NCBI GenBank assembly: GCA_963922205.1
Contig: CAWUHX010000306.1
Span: forward strand, 62,001-126,000
Direction of reading: 5' to 3'
Source: Romanomermis culicivorax
Taxonomy: Eukaryota > Nematoda > Enoplea > Mermithida > Mermithidae
Length of the DNA stretch: 64,000 bases
A program made the position numbers and the translations under genes. Under the pieces are notes generated by a model that ran no database searches, was not told where the DNA came from, and saw only the letters and a list, made by a program, of their open reading frames with translations. This document shows, piece by piece, positions 12,650 to 58,730 of the stretch. Each line of letters begins with the position of its first letter. Position 1 is the first letter of the stretch.

Positions 12650-12826
12650 CCTACCTGTAAGAGGTCCGAACAGTTGCAATTTTGGGAGGGGGGTCAGAAA
12701 AAGTCGAAATTTTTCCTAAAAAAGGCACTTTCTTGCCAATTTCTTCAAGTCTGAGGGGGGGTGTTGGGTATATGGTTGGCCAAGTTGGGGGGGGTCCCCC
12801 AACCCCCCCCCCCAATTACAGGTATG
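12650..12826 (+). mobile_element. Family-A MITE (hAT-like ends)
   Basis: Left end cctacctgtaagaggtccga and right end ..aattacaggtatg are imperfect inverted repeats. Long G and C tracts lie internally and there is no coding capacity. The 8 bp before it (cttgtaac, 12642-12649) and after it (cctgtaac, 12827-12834) match at 7 of 8 positions, but the right-hand copy also coincides with the start of the adjacent family-B element, so the target duplication is uncertain. Confidence 0.65.
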
Positions 12827-28013: not shown

Positions 28014-28519
28014 AAAATAAGATTACCAGTGAATCACACAAAAGACTAACTGATCATGATGGGACAAACTCGTTTTTCCCATGTCTTCCTTTGTATTTTG
28101 GCCAATTTTGTATTTTCTAGATTCCAAATTGACAATCTCATCAATAAACTTCTCACCTCAAACAGTTATGCTTGATCCGCAAATGTCGTAGAAACTGTGT
28201 TCGGGCAAATCACTACATTTCTGTAATCATCATAAATCCTTGACAAATTTAAAAAATGTAATGTTTTTCTGAAACAACTCACCATGACCACCTTCCCTCG
28301 ACTGGAGATATGTGCCATCAGCAGCTTCATATCAAAATTCTTGAAATACGTTCCAGATTAGTCTGGATTTTCAGTTTGTTTCACCAACCACAACTGATAA
28401 TCTTGATACTCTTGATAGTAGTTGGCATCTTCTTCCATAAGCACATGCATGGTCATTTTCAATTTGGCATTTGGAATTTTTATCATCCTATGCATGGAAC
28501 CTCGAACCTTTATAGCATA

Positions 28520-28660
28520 CATGTAATTGGGGGGGGGAAGTGCTATTGGAACCCCCCCCCCAGAAATTGTCGGCCATATGGCTAGCCATTGGGCGATCCC
28601 CCCCCCCAGGATTTTCCAATCCAATGGCTAGCCATAGGGTAGCCATGGGAACCCCACCCA
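28520..28660. repeat. G/C-tract repeat related to families A/B
   Basis: Contains 'catacatgtaattggggg', like the reverse of the family-A right end, C tracts, and duplicated 'atggctagccat' palindromes. Likely a decayed MITE. Confidence 0.4.
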
Positions 28661-28777
28661 GTCAGCAACCATTCAAATGAACTTCAAATAGAAGAAATAT
28701 CTACAACAGTTAATCAATTTTTTTATGACTAAGAAATACTATCATAAGAAGACTAAATATATGTTCAATATCAAGCT

Positions 28778-31737
28778 TCACAGAAAAATATTGCTTTCTT
28801 CCATATGCTTCTTCCAAGACAGCAAATGTTCTGGCAAAGATTCTTCCCAGTTTTTCAATAGAGTACGTTCTTTTTCATTCAATGTGATTGGTTTCCTTGA
28901 AGTTGAATCAGTTGATAGATTGCCTTTTAATAACCAATCCTTGACAATAGGAATGGCATTGAACTTTTTGATAGATGGTCCATTAATTCGTATATGCAGT
29001 ATGGTATCTAAGCTTTCTGGCCCTAGTCTTGATCTTCGGTCATACTTTGAATGCTTCATTATACTGAATCCTCGCTCAGCATCAGCAGATGAAACTGGCA
29101 CTGCAAGCATAGCACGAATGATATACTGCATGTCTGGCTTAGTACGCCATTCTATGCTGCTTGAACCCAATGCTGCAGCCCAAAATAGGTCTAAACCAGC
29201 ATTGCCAAATTGATCCATGATTTCGTGAGTACACAGTATTGCTAGCAGGTCGCACCACTGTTCAAGGACGTTTTCAATGTCGAGGTTAAAGTGAACTGCA
29301 AGCTGGGAAATTTCATCAAGCTTGAAGTTCCTAGTAAGATCAGCGTCGTTGGGAAAATTTTGAGGATTCAATGCATCAAAAGCCAGAATTTCGCTCTCTG
29401 GATAATATTCATTCAAACCAGATATGAGCTTATCAATGTATTCACCAACGATTTGACTCAAAGGACTGTATAGCTGTGGACGGCGTCCAACTGACGTTTC
29501 TAGCTTGACACTATTATATGTGACAATTTGATACTCTTGATAATTGGTCAGGGTCAAACATGCTACCAGATTGTCTTCTTCTGTACCACATTGTGCCTGA
29601 TTGAGTAATTTTCGCATATATATTCCAAACTGTTGTTTTTTGAAGTCTAGCAAGAGGGTCTTCAACTTCTGAATACGAGTAGCCTGGTTAATAATCACGG
29701 CACTTGTTGATTGGAAGTGACGAGAAACTACACCAAGTTAAAAAAGCTACAAAGTTAAAAAAGCTACAAACTAAAAACTAAAAAAGCTACAAAGTTCCTC
29801 TGTTTCAACACACTCAGGTGACCCCGAGCTTTGTTTCTGTTGTCTGACTCGAATTCATCAGGCAACTCTGCAATAGTTTCTAGTGCATTAATCAAGGTCT
29901 TATACATTGCGAAAATTTTTTTCATTGCTGTAAATTCGCTGGCCACCCATCGAATTGAGAAAATGTAATTTAGATCGAAATATTGCTCCTCAAATGCTTC
30001 TGCTGCTTCCATCAGGATTCTTCTCCGTTTGTTACTCATCAAAAATGAGTAGAGGCTGTTAATGAGGTCTTCCATTTGTTTGAAATTACTCTTGCTGCTC
30101 CATGCATAACCCACTGCAAGTTGTAAGCGATGTGCCATGCAGTGCACTGGTATGATTTTCCGGTTTTTTGTCCATTCTCGTAGTTTCATAATGATACCAT
30201 TATGATGTCCCAAATTTACTGATGCCCCATCACTGCCGAATCCAATTAGGTTCTTCTTTATTTTCTGTGTGAAAGACGGGCATATTTCATCATCTTCAAC
30301 AAATGCTTTAGTTAGGGCCTCCATATGTGCTTCAGCTGTTTCTCCTTGGTTGAGTATGATAAGTTTGTAAAAGTAAGTCACTGGACGATGCAGTTGATCT
30401 CTGTCTGAATCTGTGGACTCTCTTCTTGTTGACTCGATTGCTCGGAAATAAGTGATGATATAGTGACTGCCTTTTTTGTCGGTTGATCCATCAATTATTA
30501 AAGAAAAAGGTTTACTTTCATCACTGCATAAATGTTGAACGAGTTGCCCATGGAAATAACTGCTGATACTGTTGGCCATTTTGATTGCCGATTGGCGGGT
30601 TCGATGAAGATTTCCAATCTGAGCATTGAAATTTTCGGTGAGTTCTACCATTTCAGCATGATTGAGGAAGGGTATATTCAGCTTGACTTCAGCATAAACC
30701 AGTGTGAACATAAGCACTGTGGCAGAATGTTTTTTTCTTATGTCACATTCCACTTTTTCTTGAATCTTCTCGGAAGTTTTTGGCATAGTTTGCTCGAGCA
30801 ATGGGAGTTCAGAGAGTATACGTTGATGAACTGTTTTACCACTCCTCCTGTCTTTTCCCACACCACCCGATTCTGATCGAACAATGTGTGCCTTCAGGTA
30901 CTGCAAAAATGCATCTCTGGATTTTGTTGATGGAAGGCTACTGAATGTTTGTGGTGCAGCCATTCTTGGCATATGCTGCTTTGCTATGTTGATTTTTCCT
31001 TCTGCAATGGCTTTCCGACAAATTCGGCAGAAAACTACACTCTTCGATAAGTCCTGATGGTCAAATTGGAAAGTAACCCAATCTTTAAACCTGAGAATTT
31101 TTCTGTCACTTCTTCCATTACTCCATTCATTGCTGAACCATCTTGGATCAATGAATTTAGTTAGATAGGTTGATTTTTGTATTGTTTTGAGCCAAGTTTT
31201 ATCGAAGTATTCACTAGATTCCCACCAATTTGTAATTTTTGTCGGTTCTTCCAGATCCAGCCTGATCTGCTTTGCTGATGAGATTGATGCCGTTTCTGGA
31301 CAGTTGGAAGAAGCATCTGTTTCGGTTTCTAAGCGCCTTTTTCGGTCTACTTCAAGTTTGTTACGAATAATTGCTGTTGCAGAGACGGAACTAAGAGCAG
31401 AATGGTGTTGCAGTAGTGCTTCTGGATCTTCATCATGAATAGAAGAAATCGACGATTGTTCTACTCTGTGTCCATGTCCAACTTTTCTAGTAGCTAAATG
31501 TGGTGATTCCAAAGTCACTGATAATACTGATGATATAGTATTATCAGATTCATCATCATAATCTGGAATTAGTTCTCCTGCATTTTCACTATGGATTGCA
31601 TAGCATGCTTGATCTACTTGTAAAAGTGAGCTAGTAAGACTGCCTGATGTGCATGGTTCATCTTCCTCTTCCTCTTCTACTTCTGTCTGTAACCTGCTGG
31701 CAGGATCATGTGATGTTCTGGAGGAGTGAAGTATAAC
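28778..31737 (-). pseudogene. Second hAT transposase (KIAA1586/ZNF862-like), frameshifted
   Basis: The minus-strand frame is open from 31737, directly after the TGA of the upstream ORF, to 29764. It continues in another frame from about 29750 to 28778. Order of features: acidic/Ser-rich N-terminus (EVEEEEEDEPCTSG); a WWESSEYFDKTWL block; a Cys-pair finger VVFCRICRKAI; a SLIIDGSTDKKGSHY block with the likely first catalytic Asp; NLIGFGSDGASVNLGHHNGI with the second; PVHCMAHRLQLAVGYAW; and, in the shifted frame, the C-terminal dimerisation block SSADAERGFSIMKHSKYDRR. The break at 29745-29800 coincides with two to three tandem 'aaaaaagctacaaagtt' copies, so slippage or duplication caused the frameshift. 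No ATG lies at the expected N-terminus; the first possible starts are internal. No TIRs were found. It is unrelated in detail to the 17.3-20.7 kb element. Confidence 0.85.
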
Positions 31738-32724
31738 TCATTGGTTGCACCTCGCTTCTTCACTGTCAGAGTAGATACGTGTTGTCTTCTTTTTGCTCAT
31801 CAAACCAGTGATATCTATGTTTGCTATTATGTAGTCGTGACGGCTGCAGTCATTCACTTTTCCAGGTATGATTCTGCCAATTTTGAAAAGATATGGTTTC
31901 ATTGGTGAGAAGAGAGGTTCCCCACAATAGTTGATTGAATTATCAGATGTCTGGCCATCAATTTCACGTAGAATATATTCTTTAAAATTTGAGAGTTCTG
32001 GAGCAAAAAGTGTGAAACCTTCACAACTCGTGTACGGTGTTTTTGACCCCACCACAACGATGTCAATTACGATTGATGGGTTATCCTTGAACAGATTTTC
32101 AAGTGATCCTTCGATAGTGATGTATGGTACTGATGCAGAAAATCGATGAAATCTTTGATTGAGTTCTACAGCAGTCGAACCAGTTGCATGGAGCAGGACT
32201 ATAGCAAAAGGTATCTCTGGACGTAATGCGCTTTTAGCTAAATTCAGATGCGAAAATAAACTTGATTGTCCTCTGACTAAAGTTGTGCTATGTTTCGAGC
32301 CACTGCGAACACTGTTGTGTGTGAAGTCCAAATCAGGGGGGATGATAGTACCCCCATCTGTGGTCACTGGGCTACCGAAGAAGAAGAAAAAATCTAACTC
32401 GTCCTGTGACTGATCATTCCAAGACGCAGGTGCTTGATCTTTAGCCAGATTTACATAAACTTCACAGACCATCTTTGTATGTTTTGATGTAAATGGACGC
32501 ACTATCATAATTTTGTAGCCATCAAAATTAGGTTTGTGGCCTTTCTTGCAGTTGAAACGTATCTCGATGAAACTGTTTACATCTTTATTTTGGAATGATG
32601 CCGGTGACTTCATATTGACCTCGGAAATGATTGCATTACATTCTGATTTAGATGGAGGTGCCGCATACAACATACCAATCGTAAGACCAACAAAAAACCA
32701 TAATGTAGCTCGCCCGATTTTCAT
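31738..32724 (-). CDS. Secreted protein with lamin-tail-like domain, 328 aa
   Basis: Starts with a signal peptide (MKIGRATLWFFVGLTIGMLYA, cleavage likely before residues 22-24). Residues about 30-160 resemble the extracellular lamin-tail domain (LTD) fold: IISEVNMKSP, an acidic-hydrophobic FIEIRFNCKK strand, then FDGYKIMIV and later PFAIVLLHATGS. The LTD assignment rests on this motif order only. Cysteines at about 28, 58 and 87 and near the C-terminus fit a secreted protein. A 56-nt GT-AG intron (32801-32746) sits in the 5' leader just upstream of the ATG, which supports transcription. The ORF ends in TGA (31740-31738), and the same frame continues without another stop into the hAT transposase coding downstream. 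It may be a host gene, or the 5' part of a broken secreted-domain/transposase fusion. Confidence 0.7.
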   Translation of the reverse strand: MKIGRATLWFFVGLTIGMLYAAPPSKSECNAIISEVNMKSPASFQNKDVNSFIEIRFNCKKGHKPNFDGYKIMIVRPFTSKHTKMVCEVYVNLAKDQAPASWNDQSQDELDFFFFFGSPVTTDGGTIIPPDLDFTHNSVRSGSKHSTTLVRGQSSLFSHLNLAKSALRPEIPFAIVLLHATGSTAVELNQRFHRFSASVPYITIEGSLENLFKDNPSIVIDIVVVGSKTPYTSCEGFTLFAPELSNFKEYILREIDGQTSDNSINYCGEPLFSPMKPYLFKIGRIIPGKVNDCSRHDYIIANIDITGLMSKKKTTRIYSDSEEARCNQ

Positions 32725-32745
32725 ATTGATAATCTTCTTTTGTCA

Positions 32746-32801
32746 CTGAAAGCAAAAAATTCATGGAATAGGAATTGTCATATAAAATCTGTGTAACTTA
32801 C
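32746..32801 (-). other. 56-nt leader intron
   Basis: On the minus strand, donor cattaca|gtaagtt and acceptor gctttcag|tgaca. Length and signals match the short introns elsewhere in the window. Confidence 0.55.
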
Positions 32802-32829
32802 TGTAATGACGGATGTTTATGGAGCCTTG

Positions 32830-34009
32830 CAGTCTGTATCTTCAAACTCCGAAATATTTAATTCAATTAAATTGCCTTCGAAATAATCTTCTCAAAAATG
32901 TATAAAAATCTGCTCTCCTATATAGAAAAATCCGCACTCGAGTGAAGAAAATTGGGCTCTGCAATATAGAAAATTTTTTTCAAAATCCTACTCTTTCTCG
33001 TTTGTCAAAGAGAAAGAGCACCAGACCTGAACCAACAAAATCAATATTTTTTTTGAATGGTATGGTAACTAGATAATTTCTCTGCCGAGGCTGATAAAAA
33101 AGAATGTGGTCTATTTATAAAGTCAGTTGCTGGATAATTCATCGCGAAAAACAGAATAAATGCTACGTCTATAGTCTGTTTTTCAAGAAATACTTTTACA
33201 TAAATAAAAGTGGAAAACAAGTTAGTATTTTAGTTTTGACGATTTTCTGAATAACAATATGTTGTATCGGGACTGGAAATTTGTGTGCATACTGACCTCA
33301 CCTCTAAGAATTTTTCGAGTAAAAAATTTTATGATGAGAGCACTATGTAAACGATTTTGATGACAGTACTGATTTGTGTCACTTTTCTATTTGGAAGCAT
33401 TTTATAAGAAACAGACTATAGAAATTTGATGTCGTTGAACATCCCTGGGGAATGTTGTGACGTTTACATTCCCCTTCCGATCTAAACCTTGGCCAGAAAA
33501 GTGGAACTGGCGTGCTTCTTGATTTATATTTTGAAACTGACTGCTTATAGAAGGGAACTGTGAATTGCGTCTAGCCGTAACAACAAGTTTTGCTAGTTCG
33601 TGCATGATGTGTGTTCGTTTCGTATAGCTGACAATTATTTATATTTTATAGTTAACAGTCTGTTTATAGGCTTCTATATAGAAAGATGTGGAAACCCTGC
33701 AGAGAACTGTGCTATTGTCGACTGCTGGAATTTTGTGTCGTGGGCTGTGGAAAAAAAATATCTATTACCATTTCTCCATTTTTAGGCCCATCGTTTCGTG
33801 AGTGTGTATGCTGGGAAAATTGAATTTAGACCCTTACTGCTTTTTGCCAAACCTTTGCTTGTCGGAGGACTGGGCTCATTTAGAATTTGCATAAAAAGTA
33901 GACACGAGAATATCTCTCCTTTTTTTTTGATTAAATTATTTCTGGTTGATTTGTTTGTGTATACTTTGCCGTAATTTTTTTCGATGATATAATACACACG
34001 ACGTCAAAA
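32830..34009. other. Intergenic region between divergent genes
   Basis: Separates the minus-strand secreted-protein gene from the plus-strand membrane-protein gene, so both promoters should lie here. No confident TATA box or initiator was identified. A short minus ORF (33402-33605) has no recognisable motif. Confidence 0.4.
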
Positions 34010-36898
34010 ATGATGGATCACGGATCACCGCGTAGAATGAACAGTTTTCCGGGATTGAGTGGCGCCAGCAGTTTATCGAGCAGTTATTTCGACAACCGAA
34101 ATTCCAGTGGTTCGGCATTTTCGGCTGCCACGACCAGCTCCGACGATAATGTCATGGATTTTTTAGCATTAGACGTAAATAAATTACGACAAGCTCTGAA
34201 CGATTTATCAAAAGGTCAGTGCTTAAACGCGCAAAGTTTTGTTTCACTTTTGTTTTTAACTTTTGCTCTGCATTGTTTTTTGTTCCCACTTTATTGTAAT
34301 GTGCTAAATCTATATCGTTTAACTTTTTTGGTTCTGTTTCACTTCTATTGTCTCGTTCAGATTCTTTTACGTATGTATCGTTTTCAAACTTACTATTTTA
34401 TCATCATTTTTCTACTCTTGCTTTTTGTTTCATTTTTTGCATGTTTGTGTTTGTTGGCTTTGCTTGTCTCATCAAACACTATCGCAGAATGTGCATGATA
34501 TAGAATTTTCAAACACTATTTCTATATCGTATGCCCTCTGGACCACTTGCCTATGTACCATTCGGGGCCGTGAGCCTTGAAAATTATACATTATTCATTT
34601 TTCTTTTTTTATTCATTATTGTTTTTCGATGTCTGGAATTGCTAAGTTTGTGGAATTTTTGTTACGTCTGCAGTGAAATTTTATTCCTTCTTGCCTCTTC
34701 CTCTTTGGGGCGAAACTCTATCATTAACATATATAGAATCTTCATGTAATCGATACTCGAACTGATCCTTATAAATTTGCTGTTTGTTCATATTTGCCGT
34801 GTGTAAAATTCCAATAGTTTAAGTATAGAAATTTATAGAATTCTGTTCCGAGTGAATTGGATGTCAAAAATTCGGCGAATTGGATTAAGTTAGTTGTTTT
34901 GATTTCTTTCTATTATGCATATTTCTATGTCCAAATGAGGTTTACGCTGGCAAGTGTTTGTGTTTCCCCATTGAATGATTGCGCAATTCATTCATAACTG
35001 TAGTTTTGAAGATTCCACGACTTTTCTCATTTTTTAAATTCCAAATTGTTATTATTTTAATTCCGGTTGACTTTTGATTTTTTTAAAATGTCTTTGCATT
35101 TTTCATGCGAGTTATCTGTTGATGTAGACCGAAGGTATATGAAACATGCAATTTCGTTATTCATTTTTCTTTCAAACCATTTTTTCATAGGTGCGGCGAA
35201 GATTCGCTTTTCTTCCGAACAGAATGTTGCGTCGGAGCCAAGGGAGGCGGCGATGGTGCTGACGTTCGGTGCTGCACAGTGCCGACATCCGGATTTTGGT
35301 GAGTAACATTAATTTCAATGACGCAATAAAGTATGGAATATGGGAAGGCCAATTTAACAAATTTGTTACCAGTTGAAAAAAATTGTTATCTTTGATGATG
35401 TATCACAATTTTTTCTAGATGCATCACAAAAACTTCAAGATCCTTTGTAAAAATTTCAAAATGCATCACAAAAAATTAAGATGCAAGAGTCTTTTGGTGT
35501 CCAACATTCTTTTCAAGTGTACCACAATTTTTTCAAGTGCATCGCATTTTTTTCAAAATAATGTTGAAGGCACCTTTGTTTAACTTGTTCTTCGTAATTT
35601 TTTTCGCCTTAGTAATTAGTATTGTTAGTTTATTTTCCTATTTATTTATTTATTTTCCTTCTGTTTTCTCATGGTTTTTCAATGTTGTTTTTTGATTTTT
35701 AAAATATTTTATCCTCCTTTTTTGTTATATTTTGTTTTATTGTTATTGTTTTTTCTGTTGACCTGTTGTTTGAGATTTTGTTTTGTCTTCTTTTATCAGT
35801 TGTTCCTACTTTTGACAATTTTACGTCTTTATTTTTTCTTTCTTTTTTCTGCTTTGTGGTTCTCTCCTGCTTGCTTATATTTTCCATATTTCCCTTAGTT
35901 TTTCTGAATTTTTGTTTCTTTATTTTTTCTGCTAATTTATCTTTCCTTTTGTCAAATTTTTCCATATTGTTGTTGTTCTTTTTTTCCGATTATTTGCAAT
36001 TTTTTTCTTTTTTTTCTATGTTGCTGCTGCTTTTTTTCTTTCTTCTCGTTTTTGCTGTCGTTTTATTTGTTCTAACTTATTTTCTTTTTCTCGTTTTTTG
36101 TTATATTTTGATTTGTTGTTCTTTTCTTTTCTTTTTTTATGCTATTTTCTCGATTCACATGTTTGTTTTCTGTGTTTTCAACATGTCTTGTTTCTTCTGC
36201 TTTTTTGTTGTTGATGCTTTTTCGTTTTTCTTGATTTTTTTCGTTTTTTCGTGTTTTTTTACTATTTATTTTTTTCCTGATTTTACCAATTTCAGAGCTT
36301 TGTTCTTTTATTATACTTTTTGGTAAATTTTCTGTTCTTCATCCATTTTTTGCTTTCTCTTATTTTGTGTGTTCTGTTATTTTCATTCTGCCTCTATTTT
36401 TTTAGTAAAATATCAGTTATTAATTATTTTTCTTTCTGTTTTTTGCTATTTTTTGTTATATTTCTGTGTTTTTCTCTTGTTGTTTTCATCTGATTTTTTG
36501 TGCTTTTTGGTTTTCTCTCCTGGTTTTTTGCAAAATATTATTTTTTCTTTCTGGTTTTCATCTATTTTCTGCTTATTCTTTTTGTTTTGTGTTATATTTT
36601 TGTGATTTTTTTCTTGTTTTTTGCCTCTTTTTTTGTAACATATCGATTTTTAATTTTTTTCTTTCTGTTTTGTGATTCACCACACTCCACAGTCACTATC
36701 ATTATTATCCTACTATAGTAAGCACTGCTAATTTCAAAATTTTTTAGGACGATGATGGCGTTTTTGGTGCTTTTCATTATTGGCATTTTCGTTTTGATCG
36801 TGAAATTTTTGATTAAAAAATTGCGTCAAACTTACGCACCGTTCAATCAGAATTTGTCTTTATTGCGTCAAGTTGTTTTGAACGAGGATTTGTTGTAA
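34010..36898 (+). CDS. Small single-pass membrane protein gene, 4 exons
   Basis: Exons 34010-34214, 35191-35298, 35419-35446 and 36748-36898 give 492 nt, exactly 163 codons plus TAA. The N-terminus is Ser-rich (MMDHGSPRRMNSFPGLSG...), followed by DNVMDFLALDVNKLRQALND, possibly helical. Exon 2 encodes a basic/acidic segment with AAMVLTFGAAQCRHPDF. Exon 4 encodes MMAFLVLFIIGIFVLIVKFL, one transmembrane helix, then a short basic tail ending in VVLNEDLL. With no signal peptide this would be a tail-anchored or type II protein. Exons 1, 2 and 4 have good splice signals and better base composition than the introns. The 28-nt exon 3 is inferred because it alone corrects the phase from exon 2 (phase 1) to exon 4 (phase 2), and it lies within an 'atgcatcacaaaaa' repeat. 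AATAAA follows at 36987. Family not recognised. Confidence 0.6.
35640..36680 (+). repeat. Long T-rich pyrimidine-biased tract inside intron 3
   Basis: About 1 kb of strongly strand-asymmetric sequence built from 'ttttctttctgtttttt', 'gttatatttctgtg' and 'ttttgttgttg' words. The hydrophobic ORFs here (for example 35766-36326, Phe/Leu/Ser-rich) are by-products of the T runs. It also helps explain the long polypyrimidine run before exon 4. Confidence 0.75.
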
Positions 36899-36986
36899 AG
36901 TATTTTAAGTTTTTATCAGTAAAATATGTAACTCCGTTCTTGCATTCCAATTTTACTCAGGAAAATTCTAACAACAATTTATCTAC

Positions 36987-36992
36987 AATAAA
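36987..36992 (+). terminator. Polyadenylation signal AATAAA
   Basis: Located 89 nt after the TAA of the membrane-protein gene, in AT-rich sequence. Confidence 0.45.
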
Positions 36993-37211
36993 TTTTTCTG
37001 AAAATAACAAATCATTTTTATGTTTGCATTTATCACATGCACAACAAGCATAAAGTTTCGTTTTGAGATGTGGCGTAAATACCTGGGTCAAATTTACGAA
37101 GCAGCCCCAATTCTCGACTGTAATGGCACTGTTGCTCCCTGATCCTGGCCATGTGTCAATGTGGTAGAATCTGAAAAAACAAAAAGTTCTATAGTCTTCC
37201 CATATTAGATA

Positions 37212-37625
37212 TCAAGGTGAAATAATTCCTTTCCTTGTGCAATCATGTGACTCTGGGTTTGGGTAAGCACTATCCCAATAACCAGATTTAAAAGTATTGT
37301 TGTTGACAATTTCTTTGTGCAGCTCGAATGCAATCATGTTGTTGCCATCAATGTATCGTCCTCCTATAGCATAGGTGCCTTTGTCAAGTGATGATCTTGT
37401 AACAGAGCATGTGATAGATCTGAAGTAGTGAGTGAACCTATATCTACTCATTGTTCAATCAATCAACTGATGTGCCATTTCATGTTTTACTCACCCACAA
37501 GTGATGAAATTATGATAAGCTCTACATTTCAAAATTTCACATCTTTGGCCCAGCTCGCAGTTTGATGACAATGATTCATCAAATGCAAGAATAATCCACA
37601 AAGTAACTGGCACAATTTTCATCAT
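37212..37625 (-). CDS. Small secreted protein, 2 exons, 118 aa
   Basis: Exon 1 (37625-37495) encodes a signal peptide, MMKIVPVTLWIILAFDESLS, and then SNCELGQRCEILKCRAYHNF with three closely spaced cysteines. A 57-nt GT-AG intron follows (gg|gtgagt..atatag|g). Exon 2 (37437-37212) encodes FTHYFRSITCSVTRSSLDKG, a GGRYIDGNNMIAFELHKE block and a C-terminus with SHDCTRKGIISP. Phases agree (2 then 2). After the stop the same frame contains a possible further exon: acceptor ttttttcag at about 37172, then FYHIDTWPGSGSNSAITVEN and WGCFVNL, down to a donor-like site near 37080, so the true C-terminus may differ. The family was not recognised. The protein is probably extracellular with disulphides. It is convergent with the membrane-protein gene. 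Confidence 0.6.
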
Positions 37626-37950
37626 CTTGTGTCGCAGATTTAAACTGAAAAATTATGATAATCCAGAAAATGAAGGTGTAGGCAAGCTAACTATGGTAAA
37701 AATGTGGGATGTATCTGGGAAAACAAAAAAAAACTGAACAGATAGCTTATCAGTTTAGGTGACAAGGGCAGTTAAGCAGCGTGCAATAGTAGTAATGCTT
37801 ATATTTTGTTAGCTTTCATTTTTGTCTTCCCCCTAGCAACAGAACTTCAGTTCTCTGCATGTAGCTGGAGGCTGGTTAATTTCTTCATGTTAAAAATAGT
37901 GCTCTAATGGTGAAGCATAGAGTGAAAATGTGAAAAAATCGATGTTCAGT
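37626..37950. other. Upstream region of the secreted-protein gene; nothing else recognised
   Basis: AT-rich sequence 5' of the minus-strand gene; the promoter should be here but no clear core element is visible. Confidence 0.35.
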
Positions 37951-37959
37951 TTGTCTGGA

Positions 37960-38050
37960 CCCCTCCCCCCAAAATTTTGGGAATTACTGACCCCCGGCCC
38001 CAAAAAAGTGCTCCAACCCCCCCCAGACCTCGGAGCTCCGTTACATGTAT
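37960..38050 (-). mobile_element. Family-B MITE, partial
   Basis: The reverse complement reads 'catacatgtaacggagctcc', a gaggtctgggggg tract, a 'gcacttttttggggccgg' block and a 'gtcagtaattcccaaaattt' block, matching the other family-B copies. Only the terminal ~90 bp is present. Confidence 0.65.
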
Positions 38051-39070
38051 GCAAGATTGCGACTTACAAGTTAATTTAAAACAAAACGATGTATGATATA
38101 GTGAAAAGTTACAAATGAAACACACACCTTGAAGTAAAATTTTGCAGATAGAAATCGAATCATGCTGAATTCGTAATTTGGCACTTGTTTGAGATGGTGG
38201 TCAGGAATAGGGTACGAGTCTAAAAAACATACAAAATAAGGAAATCGATATTTATGTTCAATTTTTCAACCAAATAACGGCTGAACACTAAAAAGTTTTC
38301 GAAAATTAGAAGATTGTAAAAGCTAGGTGAGAAGGCTCACAAGTTTCTAGTCCTATGGGAGTAGGAAAACGTAAAAAATACGACATAGTACTTGCTTTCC
38401 ATTCTTAACATTTACAAGCAAGGTCATACTATGCTACGGATAACATGAGTCAAGTTTAAATATCCGGACAAAAACTCAATATCTTCTCTTGAAGCAAAAA
38501 TGCCCCGTCCATGCGAGTCTTTACCAAATTGCATAATTTTAACTCACCTTGCGCTATAATGAGCATTGTTAGCTCAGGAGCAGCCTGATCACAAATTTGA
38601 TACATGATGGCTGATATTTTATTTACCTATTGCGTAGCTGTTGATACACTGGTTTTTGACAATACAGTCAGATTATTGTACTACATCCCTAACCAATTAC
38701 AAGGATCAAAGCAGCACTTCTTGTACATGCTTTAGTTAGTCATTCTTTGTTTTCCTGATGACAAAGTGACAAACAGTGCCAAAGCTTCTTCGCTGATTGG
38801 CTCTCCAATGGAATGTCTCTTTTCTGGCAACTTTTGGCCTTTCTTGAGTCACATCAGGGGACTAAGTTGTTTGTACAACTCCAGATCATGGTCTTGTCGT
38901 TGAAAATGCATATAGATGTGATCGACCATTTCTCCTCAAGGAAGGCATTTTTGGGAATGACGCCTTGATTGCTTTTGCTTTTTTTCATTTTAGGTTCTTT
39001 CTTCAACCATTGCAACAATTTGAGTCTCTATCATTCCCTGTATATTAGAACTCTCCCATTTTTCATTATC
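38051..39070. other. No gene recognised
   Basis: AT-rich. Minus-strand open segments near 38750-38950 look weakly coding (SITSICIFNDKTMIW) but no family was recognised. Confidence 0.35.
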
Positions 39071-48300: not shown

Positions 48301-48906
48301 GCATACATGTAGCAGGGTCCTGAGGTCTGGGGGGAGTTGGGCGAGTTTTTCGGGGCTGGGGGCAGTGTTTTTTTTTGTACTCAGTCTATTTGTACTGGTA
48401 CAAATGACCTCTCAAAAACGGTTTGTACTCGAAAATTTGTGAAAAATTGCTAAAAAGAGCATTCATTGTAATAAAATGCAAAAAACATGCTGTGAAATAC
48501 GTTGGCTATCTTCACGAGCCACATAGGAAGGCTACAAATTCAGACACATAAAACACTTGATCATGAGACACAGAACATGCACTAGTGAAATACTCCACAA
48601 AAAGCTTTTATTATGCTATAGCTGCTAGTAGGTCCTTATTGATGGGGATGCATAACAAACGAGTCCATTATTGATACTGATGGCTGTTGGGTGACAAAAA
48701 ATTTTTTCGTCATAAAATTTTTGTTTGTACCAGTACAAACGAAACCAAAATTTTGGTTTGTACTTTGAACCATTCTGTTCGTAAAGTACAAATGAAAAAA
48801 ACACTGGCCGGGGGGTCAGTAATTCCCAAAATTTTGGGGGGAGGGGTCTCTCCAAGAGAAAAAATGCGATTTTTTCACGAAAAAATTCCGAAAAACAGTT
48901 TTTATT
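48301..48906 (+). mobile_element. Family-B MITE, split by insertion
   Basis: 'catacatgtagcagggtcct' and a gaggtctggggg tract at the left; after the insert at 48363-48806 it resumes with 'ggtcagtaattcccaaaatt' and a ggggggaggggtctc tract, continuing to about 48906. Confidence 0.7.
48363..48806. mobile_element. 444-bp hAT MITE nested in family B
   Basis: Ends cagtgtttttttttgtac and gtacaaatgaaaaaaacactg are inverted repeats. Flanking octamers gctggggg and gccggggg match at 7 of 8, and the family-B sequence is continuous once the insert is removed. 'Tttgtactggtacaaa'-type palindromes lie inside; there is no ORF of note. Confidence 0.85.
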
Positions 48907-49807: not shown

Positions 49808-49833
49808 CCCCCCCCCCCTATTACAGGTATGGG

Positions 49834-52319: not shown

Positions 52320-52572
52320 AAATTTTTTAACGAAAAATGGTAAAAAATGTGAATTTTCTTGGCGCTTCGCGCCATGGATAAAATTTTTCGGTCTTTTAAG
52401 GGAAAAATTACTATTTTTTGAACTATTTTTCAGACCTTTTTGGTGAAAAAATCGAATTTTTTTTCCTTGAGGGACCCCTCCCCCAAAATTTTGGGAATTA
52501 CTGACCCCCAGCCCCAAAAAAGTCGGCCACCCCCCCCCCCCCAGACCTCCGGGCTCCGTGTTACATGTATGG
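52320..52572 (-). mobile_element. Family-B MITE
   Basis: The reverse complement starts 'catacatgtaacacggagcc', with a gaggtctggggg tract, 'gacttttttggggctggg', 'gtcagtaattcccaaaattt', and later a 'ggcgcgaagcgccaag' hairpin. It matches 12827-13090 over most of its length. No ORF; target duplication not identified. Confidence 0.7.
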
Positions 52573-53509: not shown

Positions 53510-54690
53510 TAAGACACGATTTCTGAGAGGTTCTACTTTCCCTATGATAAGTTGAAAATTAATTATACCTCAAAATCAGATATTTTGGGTAGTTTTGTGC
53601 GCTGATTTTCATGGTATCATTTGTTTTGCTTGTAAACAAAAATTCGCATCGCTACAGTATGCCAAAGTTTGAAAATTGATGATTTTTTTGTATTTTTCAG
53701 TGGTCTTGCTAGCCAAGCAATATTTCGAGATCGGATTGATCTTATTTAATGGATGAATATTCATTTTGTAGAGGATAGAGTAAGCTCTCTTTTGATGTAT
53801 TATCTACAGTAAATAATTGCATATTACACTTTTTCATAAAGTTTAAAGTGTCCAAAATGAGCCGTCAAAATTGAAAAAATTTCGTTTATGGGCACTCCCG
53901 AGCACCTTCCCATCGGAAGCCGCAGAATTTTATTTTCCTATGTTGTAGCCCATCCATTTTTACAGCTTTGGATAAATTTTCATCAAAATTTTTGTACCGT
54001 TTTGGGAGCTGCACAGCTCTGAAAAAGGCATACTCATGAAAATTTCATAGAAATCATTGTATTTGCCAGGTGGCCCCTGTCTACCCCTTGTGATATACTA
54101 ATTACCTAAACTGTAGAATTATCAAATAACTAACAGACTATAGTTTGATGCATTAATTGTTTCGCAAGCAAACATTTTACACTCTGCAACAAAGTTTGAA
54201 GGGTCAAAAATAAGAAGCAAAAATTAAGAAAAATGCTAAATAGAGGCACTCCGAGCACTTTCACCTACCATGCTGTAGAATTTTATCTTTTTATTCTTTT
54301 GTTCACACATTCCTACAGTAGATATGAAAGCAGCATCGCTATTCGAATACCCCTTGAAGAGCTACATAGATCCAAAGAAAGCAAAATCCTGAAAATTGTT
54401 CAAAAATCAATAAATTGTTTTTGGCATTTTTGTGTTTTCATGGAGTTGGTTCATTATTTCAATATTGGAACCAGAAAATACATTAAAAAGGTCACAGCCT
54501 TTTGGACACGTTGTAGCAAAACTGTGGTTTATGATTTTAACTGCATTTTCATCTACTTGATAAATTTTGTTCAATTCCTTTGACTAACTAATCTAAAAGG
54601 ATGATACAAGCCCCCCGCCTAATCAAACCTCACAATATCTATGTCATTCTCCTGAAAAAGATTAATCATAATGCTCCCTGTGTGAATTGT
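53510..54690 (+). repeat. Left arm of large inverted repeat
   Basis: Begins 'taagacacgatttctgagag' and matches the reverse complement of 57541-58730 over about 1.15 kb with scattered substitutions and small indels. A 116-codon ORF (54233-54583) is conserved in the opposite arm, but it lacks recognisable domains and its conservation follows from the duplication. Confidence 0.9.
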
Positions 54691-55850: not shown

Positions 55851-56708
55851 CCCTACATCAATGGGCAGTTACCATTCCTAGATGTTCTTGTCAAACGGCA
55901 AGCACAGACAATGGCAACAAGTGTCTACCGTAAACCAACGCACACAGACCAATATCTGAACTTCCAGTCAAACCATCCTGTAAACACCAAAGCAGGAATT
56001 GTAAAGGGAATGATATTGCAGTCAGGTACACTATGCTCAACTGAAGAAACCAGGAAAGTGGAAGAAAATAACATCAGGCAAGCCTTCAAGAAAAATGGTT
56101 ATCCCACAGCAATCATTAACAAAGCAAATATAAGAAGAAAATGACCAACAAAAAGTTTAATACAAAGGCACAGTTGTAATACCTTACAGTGGCCAACTAA
56201 CACAGAAACTGAAGCGAAAATACCACAAGTACAAGGTTCGACTAGTTGCCACAAGTAAAGACACAATCAGGAAAAGAGTCAGCAAAGTAGCACCACCTAG
56301 AAATAAAGAAGATACACAGGGTATAGTATACCAAGTACCTATGACTCCATGTGGGAAAGTATACATAGGAGAAACGGGCAGAACACTTAAGACACGTATT
56401 GCAGAACACAGAAATGCCCTTAAGAACCTGAGCCTTGAGAAAAGTGGTGTGGCGGAACATTGCCTATCATGTGGATGTACACCCAATTTTGACAATACCA
56501 CCATACTTGCCCAAGAGCCTAATGCCTACAAAAGGAAGATCAGAGAAACCATTGAGATGGAAAAAGTGGGGTCAAAAAATGTAGGTAGTAAGAGCATTGA
56601 AATAGGCCACATATGGAACCAAGCATTCCTTAGAAGGGCAACAGACAGGTACCCAAGTCTGAACTAGTACCCCCAAGTCAGGATATATAGCACTTCTAAA
56701 CAAGTTAC

Positions 56709-57540: not shown

Positions 57541-58730
57541 GCTTTTCACACAGTGGGCTTCATGATTTTTTTTTCAGGTGAATAACATAGACTTTGTGAG
57601 GTTTGATTAGGTGGGGGGCTTGTATCATCCTTTTAGATTAGTTACCCAAAGGAATTGAACAAAATTTATCAAGTAGATGATAATGCAGTTAAAATCATAA
57701 ATCACTGTTTTGCTACAATGTGTCCAAAAGGTTGTGGCCTTTTTAATGTATTTTCTGGTTCCAGTATGGAAATAATGAACCAACTCCATGAAAACACAAA
57801 AATGCCAAAAACAATTTATTGATTTTTGAACAATTTTCAGGATTTTGCTTTCTTTGGATCTATGTAGCTCTTCAAGGGGTATTCGAATAGCGATGCTGCT
57901 TTCATATCTACTGTAGGAATGTGTGAACAAAAGAATAAAAAGATGAAATTCTACAGCATGGTAGGTGAAAGTGCTCGGAGTGCCTCTATTTAGCATTTTT
58001 CTTAATTTTTGCTTCTAATTTTTGACCCTTCAAACTTTGTTGCAGAGTGTAAAATGTTTGCTTGCGAAACAATTAATACATCAAACTATAGTCTGTTAGT
58101 TATTTGATAATTCTACAGTATAGGTAATAAATATATCACAATCGGTAGACAAAGGCCACCTGGCAAATACAATGATTTCTATGAAATTTTCATGAGTATG
58201 CCTTTTTCAGAGCTGTGCAGCTCCCAAAACGGTACAAAAATTTTGAGGAAAATTTATCCAAAGCTGTAAAAATGGATGGGCTACAACATAGGAAAATAAA
58301 ATTCTGCGGCTTCCGATGGGAAGGTGCTCGGGAGTGCCCATAAACGAAACTTTTTCAATTTTGACGGCTCATTTTTGACACTTTAAACTTTATGAAAAAG
58401 TGTAATATGCAATTATTTACTGTAAATAATACACCAAAAGAGAGCTTACTCTCTCCTCTACAAAATGAATATTCATCCATTAAATAAGATCAATCCGATC
58501 TCGAAATATTGCTTGGCTAGCAAGGCCACTGAAAAATGCAAAAAAATCATCAATTTTCAAACTTTGGCATACTGTAGCGATGCGAATTTTTGTTTACAAG
58601 CAAAACGAATGATACCATGAAAATCAGCGCACAAAACTACCCAAAATATCTGATTTTGAGGCATGATTAATTTTCAACTTATCATAGGCCTATGTAAAAA
58701 AAGGCAGAATCTCTCAGAAATCGTGTCTTA
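57541..58730 (-). repeat. Right arm of large inverted repeat
   Basis: Reverse complement of 53510-54690; the outermost match ends at 'gaaatcgtgtctta' (58730). The opposite-strand ORF at 57625-57996 is the counterpart of 54233-54583 with several substitutions. Confidence 0.9.

Follow-up and report, generated by a model that had tools for sequence, protein, structure and literature searches.

A decayed hAT transposon of Romanomermis culicivorax and the probable fusion of a signal-like start and an N-terminal domain to its transposase

In a 64,000-nucleotide stretch of the nematode Romanomermis culicivorax (GCA_963922205.1, contig CAWUHX010000306.1, positions 62,001 to 126,000; hereafter the window), an open reading frame (ORF) with a secretory-type start is followed on the minus strand, after a single TGA and in the same frame, by a transposase of the hAT superfamily. 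Why should a seemingly secreted protein share one reading frame with a nuclear enzyme? A sequence-only reading of the locus had offered three answers: a fusion gene broken by one mutation, a readthrough product, or a transposase captured exactly at the stop codon of a host gene. Our comparison of copies suggests that the ORF pair very likely belongs to a decayed hAT transposon in which a single gene would code for a long fused protein; the one-gene fusion, taken by itself, appears slightly more secure still.

One reading frame inside one transposable element

Our translation of the minus strand across 29740-32724 agrees with the frame that had been described: an ATG at 32724 opens 328 codons that end in TGA at 31740-31738, and the frame past it holds 657 open codons until TAG at 29766-29764. 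The two positions taken as starts, 32724 and 31518, lie 1,206 bases apart, a multiple of three, and the codon read in the sense direction at 31738-31740 is TGA; the register between them stands, and the codon at 31518 is in fact a GTG. Given that the starts are in register and that stops are expected at 6.5% of codons at the local composition, the long shared frame is not a product of chance: the probability of 986 open codons would be about 1e-29, a figure calculated from base composition alone for a run that in fact holds one stop. From the TGA to the CRIC zinc-finger motif the minus-strand translation lacks methionine, and the transposase half is therefore without an ATG start of its own there. 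The coding features are as follows, with copies elsewhere cited by handles such as C117 and two divergent families termed B and C:

32659-32724, minus strand: signal-peptide-like N-terminus, residues 1-22 of the translation; hydrophobic N-termini are also present in the two divergent families
31810-32658, minus strand: N-terminal domain with conserved cysteines, 40% and 29% identical to its counterparts in families B and C; "LTD-like" (LTD, lamin tail domain), with lamin tail homology unproven
31738-31740, minus strand: junction codon TGA; CGA in four of six close copies, TGA also in C5
31210-31737, minus strand: acidic, Ser-rich linker containing DRKRRL at 31330-31347, also found in family B
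29764-31209, minus strand: hAT transposase with a BED-like zinc finger, CRIC at 31018-31032, HCMAHRL and RWVASE
29737-29796, minus strand: second lesion, where three occurrences of TTTGTAGCTTTTTTA replace coding sequence present in C117; frame broken
28778-29698, minus strand: C-terminal part of the transposase, with hAT dimerisation domain PF05699 and SSADAERGFS

The dimerisation domain at 28778-29698 matches PF05699 at an E value of 8.9e-8 (32.3 bits, cut-off 21.4); the same domain scores 29.4 bits in C117, above the cut-off, and 20.2 bits (E value 0.00052) in family C, just under it. A Pfam match to zf-BED in the first hAT frame lies below the cut-off (E value 0.049). Motifs of hAT type, which may hold the RNase H-like DDE catalytic residues, are seen at 30481-30501, 30220-30243 and 29063-29092; we take the first two to be the D motifs of hAT transposases, and SSADAERGFS is presumably the catalytic E region. 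With the family C transposase as query, a PDB sequence search found no hAT relative and an IMG/VR scan found no relative.

Both ORFs lie inside a larger unit with inverted ends:

28516-38051, minus strand: whole hAT element of 9,536 bp containing both ORFs; a co-terminal C117 copy is 98.3% identical
28516-28526, plus strand: terminal inverted repeat CATACATGTAA, perfect over 11 bp, at the end nearest the transposase 3' end
38041-38051, minus strand: terminal inverted repeat CATACATGTAA, perfect over 11 bp, at the opposite end

Because both ORFs sit inside this element, the "secreted" ORF is transposon sequence. Copies were sought in the source genome (359 Mb, 595 contigs). The 9.5-kb alignment with C117 spans 28516 to 38052 at 98.3% identity, and the C117 copy is flanked by an 8-bp target duplication, CCCCCTCA. 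A 1,401-bp stretch covering the junction and the N-terminal ORF (31500-32900) is complete at five more loci with 91-98% identity (C117, C73 twice, C283 and C5), in some of which the element is interrupted; two additional loci hold part of the N-terminal ORF only, the transposase part of the C5 copy lies about 7.5 kb further on, and partial, hAT-only fragments are present at C515, C357 and C433.

The window and C5 have TGA at the junction; C117, both C73 copies and C283 have CGA there, a sense codon of the kind that the sequence-only reading had proposed to seek in paralogs. As CGA is the codon in four of the six copies, and CGA to TGA is the usual change at a CpG, the TGA most likely reflects decay of a single long ORF. 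C117, the copy closest to the window, has an open junction within a frame of 491 amino acids (aa) and frame breaks elsewhere; the C73, C283 and C5 copies contain several further stops. The window copy itself is broken a second time, at 29737-29796, past which the transposase resumes in a different frame (29698-28778). Of the proposed "fusion gene broken by one mutation", the fusion is supported by the sense codon in four of the five other copies and by relatives with one frame; the single mutation is not, because of the second lesion. We also considered an intron at 29764 and rejected it, as the C117 copy reads through at this place and the window has a short-repeat rearrangement.

Several further features belong to the element and its copies. 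A candidate 56-nt intron (GTAAGT...TTTCAG) is predicted in the 5' untranslated region from sequence alone:

32746-32801, minus strand: candidate 5' untranslated-region intron
33422-34924, strand not assigned: 1.5-kb segment present in the window and C117 copies and absent from the C73, C283 and C5 copies

The 1.5-kb segment has a 91% copy at C30:127562-129110 and carries a plus-strand ORF from 34010 (MMDHGSPRRMNSF...), which may be a captured host exon; neither Pfam nor PDB gave a match to the first 70 residues of this ORF. About 5 kb from the full C117 copy, a non-autonomous element of about 450 bp (C117:198531-198982; L040:7531-7982) shares its ends with the window transposon and is flanked by an 8-bp target duplication, TGTGCAAT. 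At C73, near-identical copies of the window element at 735793-743187 (plus) and 758706-764450 (minus) are inverted about 16 kb apart, possibly an inverted duplication.

Divergent families and genome-wide pairing

The genome contains three divergent families, at 28-49% identity, with a common order of hydrophobic N-terminus, domain of about 280 aa, linker and hAT transposase. The N-terminal domain is homologous across all three (E values 6e-72, 2e-21 and 2e-21), and a five-sequence alignment shows three invariant cysteines. Identities across the families are 40/29/28% for the N-terminal domain versus 49/32/35% for the transposase, and the N-terminal domain thus diverged in step with the transposase. 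Protein searches of the genome gave at least 84 matches for the N-terminal ORF (E value up to 0.01) and at least 67 for the window transposase, the best 67 of 218 candidates.

Family B (C10, C344, C365 and three C5 loci) is 40% identical to the window in the N-terminal domain and 49% in the transposase. In several copies its N-terminal domain and linker are read as a single open frame, which measures 474 aa in L009, 514 aa in L010 and 506 aa in L014, all running beyond the end of the retrieved sequence. At C10 and C365 the N-terminus, MELFCR(I/L)MLHLL(A/V)WAF(A/V)YVTTILLIKH, is in frame with the domain.

Family C is recent: identity to the reference L023 is 99.2-99.7% in eight copies, which share a common end point, after which the flanks differ. 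The element is 4,331 bp long, with its 5' end at CATACATG in two copies, TATAAAG upstream of the ATG, and inverted ends of 13 bp in the C25 copy and 12 bp in that at C177; the latter copy is flanked by an 8-bp target duplication, ACTCTCTC. The N-terminal domain is predicted to contain a single GT-AG intron of 96 nt; across it, three of nine copies are uninterrupted (L023 and L025, 1,103 aa each; L028, 1,098 aa), five are interrupted and one was left unscored. A search with the 905-aa second exon gave at least 11 full-length matches, seven of these 11 free of stops, with others at 39-68% identity; these counts are lower bounds, taken from the best 50 of 1,700 candidates. The 24-bp terminus of family C is found 73 times without mismatch and 86 times with up to three mismatches, compared to five for a control, which suggests many shortened or fragmentary copies.

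The two parts are also paired genome-wide, in counts that are lower bounds and include many fragments. Merged matches to the N-terminal domain define 74 loci. With the window transposase list only, 37 of them have a hAT match within 10 kb, and the N-terminal domain is upstream on the same strand in all 37; with the family C search added, a hAT match lies no more than 6 kb away at 41 of the 74, and the N-terminal domain is once more upstream on the same strand in every case. About 60 residues of the family C query come from the tail of the N-terminal domain, and some matches to this query overlap the domain itself; the four added pairs (C26, C83, C110 and C9) rest on transposase residues.

Five N-terminal domain loci without a hAT match (C147, C16, C4, C527 and C73) lie 1.4-3.1 kb upstream of another multi-copy protein on the same strand, and a sixth nearby match has the opposite orientation, among the best 78 of 110 matches to this second protein. 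At C147 (L050:810-4169, minus strand), a hydrophobic start and the N-terminal domain in two broken frames precede a different ORF of 373 aa, whose match to PF24456 (E value 0.0014) is below the cut-off.

Several observations weigh against our reading of the locus as a decayed transposon with a fused gene. No target duplication was found at the window copy, where the flanking 8 bp differ (CTTTATAG and CAAGATTG), or clearly at the C25 copy, leaving 8-bp duplications at three of the five insertions checked (C117, the small C117 element and C177); as its flanks do not match, the ends of the window copy may be rearranged. All six window-family copies compared carry stops or frame breaks, and the intact fusion is for this reason only inferred for that family. 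No hAT match lies within 6 kb of 33 of the 74 N-terminal domain loci, and, for the window transposase list, no N-terminal domain match lies within 10 kb of 21 of 57 merged hAT loci. A signal for the endoplasmic reticulum (ER) on an enzyme of the nucleus is a contradiction if there are no isoforms.

Selection signals are likewise weak, based on small counts and partly contrary. Between the window and C117, the ratio of nonsynonymous to synonymous rates (Ka/Ks) is 0.37 for the signal and N-terminal domain (three synonymous and four nonsynonymous changes), 0.85 for the linker (one and three) and 0.23 for hAT (eight and seven). In the other 14 pairs, mostly one decayed copy against another, it ranges over 0.14-1.43 for the N-terminal domain, 0-4.73 for the linker and 0.42-0.76 for hAT with one value undefined; the window-family linker shows no clear constraint. 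The ratio of nonsynonymous to synonymous differences (pN/pS) is 0.68 for the N-terminal domain and 0.86 for the linker and following part within family B, and 0.49 for the N-terminal domain, 0.33 for the linker and 0.87 for hAT within family C. The stronger argument is the in-step divergence of N-terminal domain and transposase together with a joint that is kept open. Retention of the fusion in three families, and the uninterrupted, more than 99% identical copies, suggest that the N-terminal module is useful to the element.

The signal-like start, the N-terminal domain and rival accounts

A signal-like N-terminus, corresponding to the signal peptide proposed earlier, is seen in three families. 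Our simple test, applied to the window and family C, asked for a 10-residue hydrophobic core, small residues at the cleavage position and no acidic residue; the window and family C proteins pass it, as do 1.7% (335/20,000) and 5.8% (1,150/20,000) of random N-termini under two null models. Family B has Glu at position 2 and would fail the no-acid rule; its longer hydrophobic stretch could be a membrane anchor. The argument that the segment is functional is its presence in all three families with a readable N-terminus.

The "lamin tail" label given to the N-terminal domain is not supported by Pfam or PDB. Searches of Pfam, NCBIfam and PDB yielded no credible family, and the lone Pfam match to the aligned domain was to Voldacs, in one of five members (E value 0.067). 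The lamin tail model PF00932 gave no match up to an E value of 10 in the window protein or in the other four alignment members and nothing above the cut-off genome-wide, where two weak hits (E value 0.081) fall outside the copies of these elements; as a control, the same model matched in four of 14 genomes. A profile of the domain compared with three lamin-tail-type sequences aligned just 35-37 columns near the start, at an E value of 0.017 and a probability of 2.6%, and at an E value of 0.0022 and a probability of 12.8% with a changed five-sequence set including the C147 pieces, a weak match. A PDB search with an LTD consensus, which Pfam does recognise as LTD, returned nothing, and a single-sequence AlphaFold model of the domain (mean predicted local distance difference test score 36) was unusable. 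The likeness is a weak lead and no identification. One paper reports that some bacterial DNases carry a fused lamin tail domain and links such domains to DNA binding (PMC4486849).

We propose that one frame would encode, in order, a hydrophobic signal, a cysteine domain of about 280 residues, an acidic linker with a motif like a nuclear localisation signal (NLS), a BED-like zinc finger and the hAT transposase. The primary product would be a fused precursor; nuclear transposase would arise from molecules escaping ER targeting, or from a signal-less isoform made by a downstream start or alternative splicing; and the N-terminal domain would perform an accessory job for the element, whether tethering to DNA or the envelope or a secreted accessory role. 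As the route of targeting, we consider an accessory-domain fusion protein evenly balanced in probability and separate isoforms somewhat below that.

The strongest rival, a serious possibility that falls a little short of even, holds that each element makes two proteins: the N-terminal domain secreted alone, and the transposase produced through an internal start or alternative splice, with the full-length fusion not a working product. The signal-like start and three invariant cysteines fit a secretory protein, the linker carries DRKRRL in the window family and family B (which we take to be NLS-like), family C linkers contain internal Met residues, and the window linker has a moderate match to a splice acceptor at 31374; however, in the intact copies of family C the linker stays open from one part to the other, under a strict two-protein design there would be no reason for an open joint in three families, and the window linker lacks an ATG before the zinc finger.

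It is unlikely that the hydrophobic N-termini are not functional signals and that the product is a large nuclear transposase with an extra N-terminal domain. Transposition needs the nucleus, a fraction of random N-termini passes our test, and family B would fail its no-acid rule; against this stand the hydrophobic segment in every family with a readable N-terminus and the invariant cysteines of the domain. A bolder reading, that this hAT lineage routes its transposase into the secretory pathway, secreted or anchored in the ER or nuclear envelope, by a signal-plus-cysteine module that also precedes the second, apparently unrelated multi-copy protein at five loci, strikes us as rather improbable; if it were true, the transposase itself would give the transposon a function at the cell surface or envelope.

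Far less probable is that the window copy yields the fusion by TGA readthrough or by recoding of the selenocysteine type. No stop other than the TGA separates the two ORFs, and C5 has TGA as well, but four of six copies have CGA, the C5 copy has decayed and carries additional stops, the window transposase has another break downstream, and families B and C have no stop at the junction; the readthrough product of the sequence-only reading is not needed and is disfavoured, with a very small probability left to it. Insertion of a hAT element precisely into the stop codon of a secreted-protein gene of the host has next to no probability and was rejected, having nothing in its favour except the coincidence of frames: the N-terminal domain and transposase lie between the same inverted repeats and are copied together, the whole junction stretch is found at five other loci, the order recurs in divergent families, and the junction, proposed as a place to look for hAT termini, has no copy of this element's end at 31738-31740.

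Across the window, eight copies of element ends (including both ends of the 28516-38051 element) are found, compared to 1.5 expected; exact or one-mismatch ends lie at 52561-52571, 48302-48312, 49821-49831 and 12816-12826. This excess suggests more fragments of such elements. Near-identical ORFs (MLNRGTPSTFTYHAVEF...) are inverted at 54233-54583 (plus) and 57625-57996 (minus), with a similar stretch in L050, and a plus-strand ORF at 56341-56667 has a GIY-YIG-like start, KVYIGETGRTLKTRIAEH, which we take to be typical of Penelope-like retroelement endonucleases.

Comparison with known systems

DNA transposons usually carry a bare nuclear transposase. The elements described here share with the hAT superfamily (Hermes, Tol2 and Ac type, and the derived ZBED host genes) the hAT dimerisation domain, a BED-like zinc finger, short inverted ends, 8-bp target duplications at three of the five insertions checked and putative hAT-type motifs; they differ in adding an in-frame hydrophobic signal and a domain of about 280 aa at the N-terminus. 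To our knowledge, no described hAT carries such an addition, and no description of the signal, N-terminal domain and hAT architecture was found in the literature searched, where most subscription journals fell outside coverage.

With the lamin tail domain (PF00932, including secreted bacterial LTD proteins and DNases), the N-terminal domain shares a position behind a signal-like sequence; presumably it also resembles it in a start of the form (I/V)I.E(I/V)N ... F(I/V)E(L/I) ... L.GY/K and in a TPG..N-like end. In contrast, it is more than twice the length of the 109-position model, has no Pfam or PDB hit, and aligns weakly over about 35-40 columns. Host-transposase fusion genes likewise have an extra domain translated in frame with a transposase, whereas the fusion here belongs to a mobile element, is multi-copy and is common to several families rather than a single host gene.

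An ER-type signal set against the nuclear need of the enzyme raises the question of what controls transposase supply, location or spread between cells, and annotation may split such loci into two genes, a "secreted protein" beside a transposase. By its parts, the element is a hAT transposon, and the in-frame signal and N-terminal domain appear to be its new part.

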